Shown here: one piece after another, positions 12,750-30,808 of the stretch | How positions within the stretch are numbered: the first letter of the stretch is position 1 | Layout of the letters: the number at the start of each line of letters is the position of its first letter | Origin: Sphaerobacteraceae bacterium | GTDB taxonomy: Bacteria; Chloroflexota; Chloroflexia; Thermomicrobiales; Thermomicrobiaceae | DNA: 33,951 bases | Assembly: GCA_007695115.1 (NCBI GenBank) | Contig: REEK01000069.1 | Coordinates: 1 to 33,951, forward strand | Direction of reading: 5' to 3' | The notes under the pieces: model-generated | Database searches by the model: none | What the model saw: only the letters and a program-made list of their open reading frames with translations | Told to the model about the DNA's origin: nothing | Position numbers and translations under genes: made by a program

Positions 12750-12863
12750 ATGAAGGTTTCAGCTTCCGTCAAACGGCGGTGTGACAGCTGTCAGATCGTC
12801 AAGCGCAAAGGTGTCGTGCGGGTGATCTGTTCGAATCCGAAACATAAGCAGCGGCAAGGCTAG
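12750..12863 (+). CDS. rpmJ: 50S ribosomal protein L36
   Basis: A 37-residue frame starts [20 protein letters not shown] and ends NPKHKQRQG. The zinc-binding pattern Cys11, Cys14, Cys27 and His32 is the zinc-containing L36 form. GGGGAGAAG precedes the ATG. It lies 13 bases before rpsM, the standard start of the alpha cluster. Confidence 0.96.
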
Positions 12864-12876
12864 AAAGGCGGGCTCA

Positions 12877-13251
12877 ATGGCACGTATTGCAGGTGTTGAT
12901 CTTCCGCGCGACAAGCGGGTGCTGATTGGCCTGACCTATATCTATGGCGTCGGCAACACCACCAGCAAGCAGCTGATGGAGCGCACGGGAATCAGCGAAT
13001 CAACACGCGTTCGTGATCTCACGGATGATGAGATCGCGCGTTTGCGTGAGATTCTCGAGCGCGAGATGATGGTCGAAGGTGACCTTCGCCGTGAAGTAAA
13101 CATGAGCATCAAGCGTCTGATGGATATCGGATGCTATCGTGGTCTGCGGCACCGTCGGGGACTCCCGGTCCGGGGCCAGAAGACCAAGACCAACGCGCGA
13201 ACCCGCAAGGGTCCGAAGCAGGGTATTGGTTCCAAGAAGAAGACTCGATAG
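12877..13251 (+). CDS. rpsM: 30S ribosomal protein S13
   Basis: The 124-residue product begins [20 protein letters not shown] and includes the helix-two-turns-helix region, the [20 protein letters not shown] motif and the basic tail [18 protein letters not shown]13 is in the 30S head, forming inter-subunit bridges and touching P-site tRNA. GAAAGG lies upstream of the ATG. Confidence 0.97.
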
Positions 13252-13322: not shown

Positions 13323-13733
13323 ATGGCGGATCGACAACGACGAGGTCAGCGACAGCGCGGGCGCGTACGGCGTAAAGATAAGAAGAATATTCCTCGAGGG
13401 CGTGCCTATATTCAGGCCACATTCAATAACACGATCATTACGCTGTCTGATCAGGCTGGAAACGTTGTTGCCTGGTCGAGCGCAGGAGCCAGTGGCTTCA
13501 AGGGATCCCGGAAGAGCACTCCGTACGCCGCACAGGTTGCGGCCGAAGGAGCAGCGCGTAAGGCGATGGAGCACGGTATGCGCTCGGTCGAGGTGCTGGT
13601 AAAGGGACCTGGCTCAGGTCGGGAGATGGCGATTCGTGCGCTCCAATCCGCGGGTCTGCAGGTTTCATCGATCAGCGACGTTACGCCGATTCCTCACAAC
13701 GGATGCCGGCCACCGAAGCGTCGTCGCGTCTAG
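13323..13733 (+). CDS. rpsK: 30S ribosomal protein S11
   Basis: The 136-residue product contains [21 protein letters not shown], the [20 protein letters not shown] segment, and the C-terminal [16 protein letters not shown] followed by [18 protein letters not shown], all diagnostic of S11, a platform protein contacting the E-site mRNA. GGAGAGG precedes the ATG. rpsD, which often follows, is absent; a 159-base spacer lies before rpoA. Confidence 0.97.
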
Positions 13734-13801
13734 GTTCTCGACGTGGCTTACTGCTGATCACGATGTTTGCAGAACAGTCCTGAAAAGCAGACGACGTAGT
13801 G

Positions 13802-13866
13802 GCGCCAGGTCTGAATTCCTCGCGCGTGCGAGCGATTCACATCCCGAACGACGGTTGACCTGGTGC
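13802..13866 (+). promoter_or_regulatory. Structured RNA element upstream of rpoA
   Basis: The closing stem pairs GCGCCAGGTC (13802-13811) with GACCTGGTGC (13857-13866): ten pairs, one of them G-U. Inside, TGAAT (13812-13816) pairs with ATTCA (13835-13839) and continues through a short internal mismatch to CTCGC (13819-13823) with GCGAG (13828-13832) and a GCGT loop. A third small arm, CCG-AACGA-CGG, lies at 13844-13854. The result is a three-way junction ending 10 bases before the rpoA Shine-Dalgarno (13877-13883). Its layout and CCAGG/CCTGG closing stem resemble the rplC leader. Regulation is inferred. Confidence 0.6.
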
Positions 13867-13892
13867 GAACAGGACAGAGGAGGCGGATTCGT

Positions 13893-14876
13893 TTGTTGGA
13901 AATAGCTCAACCAAAAGTACAGGAAACCGATACCGGATACAACTATGGCCGGTTCGTCATTGAACCACTGGAGCCGGGCTACGGGATCACGATCGGGAAT
14001 GCGTTGCGGCGTATTCTGCTGCGATCACTCCCGGGTGCATCGATCACTCGCGTTCGCATCGCGGACGTCTGGCACGAGTTCTCTTCTGTTGAAGGGGTTC
14101 GTGAAGATGTTACCGAGATCGTGCTCAACCTCAAGCGCGTCCGTCTCCGAATCGAGTCAGACACGTTCCAGGAAGCACGAGCGAGCCTGTTTTTCCAGGG
14201 TAGCGGTGTTGTAACTGCCGGAGATGTCGACTGGCCAGGCGAGCTGGAGGCCGTCAATCCGGATCAGGTTATCGCAAATCTGGATGTCGATTCTTCACGG
14301 CTCGAGATGGACCTTGTTGTGTCCCGTGGCCGTGGCTACCAGCCAGCTGAGGCTCAGGAGATCTTCACCATTGGTGAGATCCCGGTCGATGCGATCTTCA
14401 CACCGATCGAGAAGGTCAATTACGTGGTGGAGCACACCCGTGTTGGTCAGATGACTGACTATGACCGCTTGATTCTGGAGATCATTACCGACGGCACGAT
14501 CGAGCCAGCAGAAGCGTTGGCCCAATCAGCACAGATTCTGGTTGATCACGGAAAACTGATTGCCAATTTCAACCGTGATGTGATCGATGTCGAAGAAGAA
14601 GCGGTGGGCGCTGTGCCGGAGGTCGATAATCGACCGCTCTCCGAGCTTGGCCTTTCACCACGAGTTCTCAACGCGCTGCGAAGCCGACAGATCGAACGTG
14701 TCGGTCAGGTGATGGCGATGGAGCCGGATCAATTGCTCTCGATCCGGAACTTTGGCCCACGCTCGCTTCAGGAACTGCGGGATCAGCTCGCCGAGCATGG
14801 ATATTCGTTTGAGGCACTGGACTCAGTTGTTGGCGGGGCGAGCCCCAAGTCATCGACTGACGGGGATGAGGAGTAG
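13893..14876 (+). CDS. rpoA: DNA-directed RNA polymerase subunit alpha
   Basis: The 327-residue product has the alpha N-terminal assembly domain (YGRFVIEPLEPGYGITIGNA and LRRILLRSLPGA) and a C-terminal domain at about 247-302 (LSELGLSPRVLNALRS, then IRNFGPRSLQELRDQL) that in studied bacteria binds UP elements and activators. An acidic tail follows. The start is TTG at 13893, nine bases after a strong GAGGAGG (13877-13883), giving MLEIAQPKV after alignment with the family; a GTG at 13863 is in frame but lies inside the upstream RNA stem and before the Shine-Dalgarno. Confidence 0.96.
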   Translation: MLEIAQPKVQETDTGYNYGRFVIEPLEPGYGITIGNALRRILLRSLPGASITRVRIADVWHEFSSVEGVREDVTEIVLNLKRVRLRIESDTFQEARASLFFQGSGVVTAGDVDWPGELEAVNPDQVIANLDVDSSRLEMDLVVSRGRGYQPAEAQEIFTIGEIPVDAIFTPIEKVNYVVEHTRVGQMTDYDRLILEIITDGTIEPAEALAQSAQILVDHGKLIANFNRDVIDVEEEAVGAVPEVDNRPLSELGLSPRVLNALRSRQIERVGQVMAMEPDQLLSIRNFGPRSLQELRDQLAEHGYSFEALDSVVGGASPKSSTDGDEE

Positions 14877-22752: not shown

Positions 22753-23643
22753 TCAACTCACGAGGGCGGCGTAGACTACCATCGTCTCGGTGTATCGACC
22801 AGCAGAGCTATCCCATGTGCCTGCACAGGTGATCAGCGCCAGTTGCGGGTCGCCTTCACGGGAGAAGATCGACTTCGGGAGATTGGTAGCGTCGTAGGAG
22901 ACTTTCGCAGTCACCTGCCATGTCTGGACAGATCCATCGTCCATGGTGATCATAATCTCGTCGAGGATGTCGACAAACTGAAGATCGTAAAAGACTGAAC
23001 GTCCCTGGGCATCGTCCAGATGGCCGGCGAAGACCGATGAACCGTCCTGTCCCGGTCGAGGCCCGTACCGATACCAGCCGACGGTGTTGAAGTCGTCGGG
23101 TACCTGCATCGAACGGTCTGCGTCGATCCCTACGTCTGTGACGTCCGCGGAGATCGAAAGTGAGGGCACTTCGAGCTTCGCAGGATCCGGGGTGGTGGAG
23201 CTCTCCATCGTGCTGACGGAAGCAGACTTCCAGCTTACGACACTCCGGTTCTCGTCGCTGGTAGTCCCGTTTGCTGCAGCCTGTTCGCCGTTCGAAGTCA
23301 CGTCATCTGCATCGTCCGAGTCTGCTGATTCCAACGATTCATCTTCGTCTGACTCTACGAGCGACCCGTGGGAAGCCAGCCAGTTGCAGAATCGGGATAT
23401 CCGCTTGCAGTCTTCCCGAGTGCGTTCGGGTGGTGGAGCCGGGAATTCGTACTCGAGTGATGAGGAGGCTGGCTGAGCGTACTCACCAACGAACTCACTG
23501 CTCAGGTTCAGTCCAGTTGATCGGGCCCAGTCACCCCCGGATGACTCTCGTTCGTATGCCTGTGTACTCCCGATCGAAATCGGAGTCATGAGTGCGATGA
23601 GAGCGGAGCAGAGGATTGCAAGCTGAATGTTCCGACGATTCAT
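22753..23643 (-). CDS. Class F sortase
   Basis: Sortases are membrane-anchored transpeptidases joining surface proteins to the cell wall or to pilins. The 296-residue product has an N-terminal hydrophobic anchor (about residues 5-27), a long acidic and serine-rich linker (about 60-155, including ESDEDESLESADSDDADD), then the sortase domain with VGWYRYGPRPGQDGSSVFAGH (catalytic His208), LALITC (Cys273) and GRYTETMVVYA (Arg283). The pattern matches class F, common in Actinobacteria and Chloroflexota. ATG 23643 is chosen; a GTG three codons earlier is possible. Upstream is a likely substrate gene in the same orientation. Confidence 0.85.
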   Translation of the reverse strand: MNRRNIQLAILCSALIALMTPISIGSTQAYERESSGGDWARSTGLNLSSEFVGEYAQPASSSLEYEFPAPPPERTREDCKRISRFCNWLASHGSLVESDEDESLESADSDDADDVTSNGEQAAANGTTSDENRSVVSWKSASVSTMESSTTPDPAKLEVPSLSISADVTDVGIDADRSMQVPDDFNTVGWYRYGPRPGQDGSSVFAGHLDDAQGRSVFYDLQFVDILDEIMITMDDGSVQTWQVTAKVSYDATNLPKSIFSREGDPQLALITCAGTWDSSAGRYTETMVVYAALVS

Positions 23644-23688
23644 GAACCTCACCAGTTAGTTACCAATTGATCCAATTCGGACAGCGAC

Positions 23689-23719
23689 GTAGGCGTTGCG
23701 AGTATATCGCAACGCCTAC
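23689..23719. repeat. Perfect 13-bp inverted repeat between sortase and DUF4397 genes
   Basis: GTAGGCGTTGCGA (23689-23701) and TCGCAACGCCTAC (23707-23719) are exact reverse complements around a GTATA loop. It lies 22 bases downstream of the DUF4397 stop and about 45 bases before the sortase start. No U-run follows on either strand, so it is not a canonical intrinsic terminator; it could act as a 3'-end stabiliser or attenuator lowering sortase relative to its substrate, or as a protein-binding operator. Confidence 0.8.
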
Positions 23720-23741
23720 ATCTAGAGTCGTGCCAATTCGA

Positions 23742-24545
23742 TTAGTTGAACTGTCGTCGCAGGGCGATTGCCGAGCCGGACAGAACGAACACACCCAGGC
23801 CAGCAGCCAGCAGGAGCGTCAAGGAGATGCCCTGCTCAGCGGTCGAGCCTGTGCCAGCTGGAACAGACGTTGGTGCATCGTGCAGTCCCGGAATCGTCTG
23901 GACGAGCAGATCGAGCGAACCGTCCTCGAGAGAACCGATCGCGTAGACGATGTAGCTGGTGCCCTCGGCCAGGTCGAAGTCGGCCGGGCCAAGCACTGGT
24001 GCATCATCGCCAGCGGCGCTCACGGCTACGTTGTAGCTCGTGGCCGGAACGTCGAGAGTTGCCTCTTCGCCGTTCACGAAGTTGTCGATCGCAACGTCGC
24101 CATCGACCCAGACATCAACGGCCGGGGCGGCAGCGGCGTGGCGGACGGTCAGACGGGTCTCACCAGCTTCAATGGTGGTGACATCGTTCATGAAGACGGC
24201 GAGCGACGGCGTGCCATCTTCGGTCAGGTGCGCGACGATGGAGGCATTGATGCCTGCCAGGACGTCGGCCGATCCAGCGATTGCTGGTTCGCTATCGGCT
24301 GGTTCGCCAGCGGCGCGAATCTCGATGTCGTAGGTGCCTTCATCGAGTTCCAGCGGATCGGTCACTGAACCTGGCTCGAAGCTCTCGAGAGTCAGATCGC
24401 CATTGACGTAGACATCGACCGTCAGTCCCGGAACGCCGTGAACAACGGTGACGGTGCCGGTATGCGACGATGCGCTGGCGACGCCGGCGACACCAAGGGT
24501 AAGGATCAGGCCCAGGGCCGTGATCAGTCGAATCATACGACTCAT
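23742..24545 (-). CDS. Secreted DUF4397 two-repeat surface protein with sorting-signal-like tail
   Basis: The 267-residue product starts at ATG 24545 behind a consensus GGAGG. Residues 1-26 form a signal peptide (basic MSRMIR, hydrophobic core, VASA cleavage site). Two DUF4397 beta-domain repeats follow at about 31-118 and 132-216, visibly duplicated (DVYVNGD / DVWVDGD; TYDIEIRAAGEP / SYNVAVSAAGDD). The C-terminus has VPAGTGS (228-234), a hydrophobic helix (240-262) and a basic RRQFN end, the layout of a cell-wall sorting signal with a non-canonical motif. The adjacent sortase makes it a probable substrate; otherwise the helix is simply a membrane anchor. Function unknown. Confidence 0.85.
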   Translation of the reverse strand: MSRMIRLITALGLILTLGVAGVASASSHTGTVTVVHGVPGLTVDVYVNGDLTLESFEPGSVTDPLELDEGTYDIEIRAAGEPADSEPAIAGSADVLAGINASIVAHLTEDGTPSLAVFMNDVTTIEAGETRLTVRHAAAAPAVDVWVDGDVAIDNFVNGEEATLDVPATSYNVAVSAAGDDAPVLGPADFDLAEGTSYIVYAIGSLEDGSLDLLVQTIPGLHDAPTSVPAGTGSTAEQGISLTLLLAAGLGVFVLSGSAIALRRQFN

Positions 24546-30703: not shown

Positions 30704-30753
30704 TCATCTCCAAATGAGATCTGCTCCAGGATGTGGCAATCCAATAGACATTG

Positions 30754-30789
30754 AGAAAGCCCGGTCGAAATAGTCCGACCGGGCTTTCT
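30754..30789. terminator. Bidirectional intrinsic terminator between pspAB and pspAA
   Basis: AGAAAGCCCGGTCG (30754-30767) and CGACCGGGCTTTCT (30776-30789) are exact reverse complements (14 bp) around an eight-base loop. The stem has a GC-rich heart and A/T-rich ends that provide short U-runs on both strands, suited to terminating both convergent transcripts. It ends 19 bases before the pspAA stop. Confidence 0.85.
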
Positions 30790-30808
30790 GGTAATCTGGT
30801 CTGGCGGC

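Follow-up and report, generated by a model that had tools for sequence, protein, structure and literature searches.

The rpoA gene of this Thermomicrobiaceae bacterium is preceded by a stem-loop whose closing stem is, on comparative sequence evidence, a real and selected RNA element, and which we tentatively read as an intercistronic element that uncouples the mRNA stability and/or translation of rpoA from those of the ribosomal-protein cistrons. The proposal of the first-pass annotation that a structured RNA element lies in the rpoA leader is thereby upheld: the arms of the stem are conserved around a saturated interior, and across the order Thermomicrobiales this position repeatedly carries a stem-loop.

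The window (the whole stretch of 33,951 nucleotides that was analysed, corresponding to contig C15 of genome G000) carries a ribosomal-protein gene cluster that runs from rplC through to infA-rpsM-rpsK-rpoA-rplQ-truA-rplM-rpsI. The genus of the organism (g1) belongs to the Thermomicrobiaceae and is sister to Sphaerobacter (g2); the CSSed16 sample codes of the closest named Thermomicrobiaceae MAGs presumably denote soda-lake sediment. The gap between rpsK and rpoA is the longest of the operon, at about 160 nt, most others being shorter than 60 nt. Its features are the following:

13323–13733, + strand: rpsK (S11), the upstream cistron, taken from the list of open reading frames, its translation matching the rpsK-rpoA loci of relatives.
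13734–13801, + strand: variable stretch of the rpsK-rpoA gap, probably left behind when rpsD was lost, unalignable among the three genus members except for short islands.
13802–13811, + strand: 5' arm of the closing stem, GCGCCAGGTC, the first 7 nt of which are invariant across the genus.
13812–13839, + strand: inner hairpin, TGAATTCCTCGCGCGTGCGAGCGATTCA, with one internal mismatch; its sequence varies, and each relative folds an inner hairpin of its own.
13844–13854, + strand: small third arm of 3 pairs, not conserved.
13857–13866, + strand: 3' arm of the closing stem, GACCTGGTGC; 6 of the last 7 nt are invariant in the genus, and the seventh alternates between a G-U and a G-C pair.
13879–13883, + strand: rpoA Shine-Dalgarno (SD) sequence GGAGG, 12 nt 3' of the foot of the stem, with identical spacing in 3/3 genus members.
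13881–13894, + strand: small hairpin between SD and start, AGGCG-GATT-CGTTT, weak here and stronger in relatives.
13893–14876, + strand: rpoA, with a TTG start 9 nt past GGAGG and a second in-frame TTG at 13896.

Positions 13802–13866 fold with a minimum free energy of −34.1 kcal/mol (z = −2.85; 1 of 200 shuffles was equally good), and by z the fold ranks in the lowest 2.7% of 848 82-nt windows of the same DNA; the energy alone is notable, not exceptional. The 10-pair closing stem drawn in the first-pass annotation is recovered, with one G-U pair, between 13802–13811 and 13857–13866, as is its inner hairpin with one mismatch. The three-way junction that it described holds only in part: the third arm does fold in the window, but neither of the two informative relatives shows it. 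The strongest structure z of the window (about −5.8) belongs to 82-nt windows at 23641–23760 and 30721–30802, far from the ribosomal operon.

Conservation was assessed in five genomes of the genus, four of which have a readable gap, together giving only three distinct gap sequences; G003 lacks rpsK and has only the 3' part of rpoA, and a scan of the genome collection for further genus members returned the same MAG set. The gap of G002 differs from that of the window by a single base, which falls within the inner hairpin, at its unpaired internal mismatch. Across the three distinct sequences the total gap amounts to 162, 162 and 262 nt, and in all of them a closing stem, GCGCCAG/CTGGYGC, encloses 51, 52 and 50 nt, stands at the same distance from the SD, and has closing pairs with an ensemble probability of about 0.99 or more; 7–8 of the 10 closing pairs of the window are common to the genus. 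The arms are invariant in 13 of 14 columns, as against 7 of 52 in the interior (Fisher p = 4.7 × 10−8, an optimistic value, as the arms were picked after being seen), and the pairwise identity of the interior is only 24–47%. Each interior folds as a different hairpin and, therefore, on these sequences the three-way junction is not conserved in the genus; the inner hairpin is conserved as a presence, not as a sequence. Covariation, to which the first-pass annotation had looked for a verdict on the stems, has little to say in either direction: among only three distinct sequences, the closing stem displays no two-sided and one one-sided change, with 6 of 8 pairs invariant.

Beyond the genus, a stem-loop before the rpoA SD recurs across the Thermomicrobiales, whether or not rpsD lies upstream. 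Gaps before rpoA of at least 50 nt, taken up to the SD, have a mean z of −1.22 (n = 42); for whole gaps the mean is −0.89 (n = 48) versus −0.33 in 53 comparison gaps drawn mostly from unrelated lineages, mainly Clostridia (p = 0.0035, which is rough, as are all the order-wide p values, since the sequences are related by descent). Relative to the SD, pairing is raised at −20 to −11 and −50 to −46, and lowered at −5 to −1. The remaining junctions of the alpha operon, with a mean z of −0.45, are only mildly less structured. The three Sphaerobacter genomes carry two stems between rpsD and the rpoA SD, one of 9 bp that is GC-rich and has one G-C to A-U exchange among the three, and one of 5 bp; a 9-bp stem occupies the corresponding place in genus g5. 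In all, the position of the hairpin is kept in the three genus members, Sphaerobacter, g5, g7 and part of family f3. Three genera of the same family (g3, g4 and g6) have short gaps that harbour no strong hairpin, so the feature is evidently not universal.

A neutral origin, in which the gap would be what remained once rpsD was gone and the fold a chance product of GC-rich DNA and young divergence, would accommodate an energy no more extreme than the top 2.7% of windows, an interior that is not conserved, and the lack of compensatory changes among only three independent sequences. We nevertheless regard it as unlikely, given that the arms are kept in 3/3 sequences while the interior is saturated (p rounded to 5 × 10−8), that both arms lie at a fixed spacing from the SD, and that there is an order-wide excess of structure before rpoA.

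Some operons have intergenic stem-loops, mostly devoid of U-tracts, that set the ratios of their transcripts (PMC4423207, PMC10311766), and it is because a GC-rich stem-loop between unequally needed cistrons has the anatomy of such ratio-setting elements that we favour a role in message stability or in translational decoupling. The conserved closing stem of 7–10 bp, with its freely evolving inner hairpin, would stand 12 nt before the rpoA SD in a polycistronic alpha-operon mRNA, at the edge of or outside the footprint of the initiating ribosome, and would mark the border between an abundant ribosomal-protein message and a less needed rpoA-rplQ message. Endonucleolytic cleavage may occur within the gap, after which the stem would protect the ribosomal-protein segment at its 3' end and/or the rpoA segment at its 5' end against exonucleases; it may also prevent ribosomes that have finished rpsK from starting again at rpoA. 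As a consequence, the output of rpoA could plausibly be tuned relative to that of the ribosomal proteins. The retention of the arm sequence, with the interior free to change, is not needed for a purely protective hairpin, and fits a recognised stem equally well.

The cip-cel operon of Clostridium/Ruminiclostridium cellulolyticum offers a parallel (PMC4423207, PMC10311766): here too, a GC-rich stem-loop that lacks a U-tract lies between unequally needed cistrons, and its position is kept in relatives. Unlike the cip-cel stem-loops, the present element resides in a ribosomal alpha operon and its arms are sequence-conserved within the genus. By position, stem and lack of a U-tract, it would be grouped with the intercistronic stem-loops, with the processing step being putative.

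The absence of rpsD from the gap has a history of its own. The gene is missing between rpsK and rpoA, as it is from the same spot in several lineages of the Thermomicrobiales, and the only S4 gene of genus g1 is of the zinc-free type and is located elsewhere (G000:C48). Sphaerobacter genomes have two S4 genes, a four-cysteine type in the alpha operon and a zinc-free type elsewhere (L211 of G005; L155), and the latter is 73–74% identical to the S4 of g1. As Sphaerobacter still has both types, g1 most likely lost its operonic rpsD when a second, zinc-free S4 copy already existed elsewhere and could take over; within the genus, the rpsK-rpoA gap gives no significant protein or DNA match to a relic of rpsD. 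The resulting arrangement resembles the Bacillus-type separation of rpsD, in which rpsK is followed directly by rpoA and rpsD lies elsewhere with its own leader (PMC10931766). Unlike in the Bacillus type, the displacement here is recent and can be followed: Sphaerobacter, the sister genus, keeps an operonic zinc-type S4 together with a zinc-free one.

The first-pass annotation had the hairpin standing exactly where rpsD would normally be. The gene is indeed absent there, but the description is misleading, in that a comparable hairpin lies between rpsD and rpoA in Sphaerobacter and other relatives. Moreover, structure before rpoA is as frequent with rpsD present as with it absent (whole-gap mean z of −0.84 versus −1.01, respectively; p = 0.70), and the hairpin survives the loss of rpsD in genus g7, where one species has the gene between rpsK and rpoA and its sister does not (L165 and L166): the last 59 nt before rpoA, including the hairpin, are 91.5% identical between the two, and the rpsK-rpoA gap of the species that lacks rpsD measures 408 nt. 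Because the hairpin outlasts rpsD in g7 and occurs in Sphaerobacter with rpsD in place, it is most likely a part of the rpoA leader and no substitute for rpsD. The suggested connection with the missing gene, and with S4, is thus not supported; the hairpin matches no known ribosomal-protein leader, and the genus makes its S4 at another locus, with a leader of its own. A hairpin that is independent of rpsD suggests that the output of rpoA is set by its own leader, not by an upstream S4 gene. How the alpha operon is regulated when rpsD lies outside it is described as unknown for Bacilli (PMC10931766); the Thermomicrobiales, which have both gene orders, even within one genus, provide a natural comparison for alpha-operon regulation without rpsD. 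The two g7 species form a natural pair for studying rpsD displacement.

That a ribosomal protein (S4, S11, L17 or another) binds this leader and represses translation of rpoA-rplQ, making it a new autogenous control site, is distinctly unlikely on the available sequences. The conserved arms at a fixed spacing from the SD do resemble a recognised element, such leaders tend to be confined to few lineages, and S4 leaders have been published that precede rpsD-rpoA-rplQ (PMC7247131). However, no Rfam ribosomal-protein leader reaches the gathering score in the window, none is found at E values up to 10 for 13734–13920, and the rpoA gaps of those relatives that were scanned contain no Rfam leader; the interior and loops, the usual place of binding determinants, are not conserved; no 8-mer is common to the rpoA hairpin and the rpsD leader of the genus (the longest common word being 7 nt); rpoA of Escherichia coli is regulated independently of S4 (PMC10931766); and the structure before rpoA is unrelated to the presence of rpsD. 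The S4 leaders of Bacteroidia, Flavobacteria, Clostridia and Fusobacteriales likewise precede parts of rpsM-rpsK-rpsD-rpoA-rplQ, but they stand before the first regulated gene, rpsM or rpsD (PMC7247131), and the present element has no Rfam match. As for Alpha_RBS (RF00140), the S4 pseudoknot, it too is found in the alpha operon and the element would likewise concern the balance between ribosomal proteins and the alpha subunit; RF00140, however, is a pseudoknot overlapping the start of rpsM, whereas the element described here precedes rpoA and is unmatched, and it is not a member of Alpha_RBS. A match to that family at 12814–12909 (19.4 bits versus a cut-off of 38) reflects coding similarity in rpsM codons, several helix positions being mispaired, and in a further weak match, in L011, the helix region is mostly missing.

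We think it improbable that a genus-specific element of the rpoA leader, recognised through the invariant GCGCCAG/CTGGYGC stem by a ribosomal protein or an RNase, took over control of the alpha level after S4 had left the operon. Also improbable is a pause or partial termination induced by the hairpin, which would lower transcription of rpoA-rplQ relative to the upstream genes. A strong stem between genes of presumably high and lower expression is what such a device would call for, and termination at hairpin clusters has been claimed (PMC8355165); yet there is no U-tract after the stem (the 3' flank reads GAACAGGACAGAGGAGG), the + strand scan finds no intrinsic terminator, and a stem so close to the SD, with an open 3' flank, is more in keeping with an RNA leader. 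Lastly, it is very improbable that the arms are a DNA element (an operator or part of a dispersed repeat) and not an RNA stem: the inverted repeat is conserved in sequence, but the arms lie about 50 bp apart, the interior folds in each species, the + strand presents no promoter-like site (no sigma-70-type match for an internal promoter), and a related inverted-repeat pattern with 20–50 nt spacing shows no clear excess over a reversed control in the five genomes of the genus.

Two further leader sequences came to light. The displaced zinc-free rpsD (L030, G000:C48, upstream of 28977 on the − strand; also L149, L150 and L151) has a strongly conserved leader, in which an invariant GATCATGCGCGGCTGCATGCCCG is followed by a terminator-like CCCGCC/GGCGGG stem and, in most members, a U-run; it stands shortly after a −10-like AATAAT. 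This leader is absent from the Sphaerobacter homologue and has no Rfam match, and it is a candidate S4 leader or attenuator.

The second concerns the translational start of rpoA, which is most likely the TTG at 13893, with the 9-nt SD spacing seen in most of the order; UUG is the start codon of most rpoA genes in the order. Much of the order has a conserved spacer between SD and start (GGAGGCGAGTCCGCTTG, GGAGGCGGATTCGCTTG and similar), which folds as a mini-hairpin, in which the end of the SD pairs with the first bases of the UUG start.
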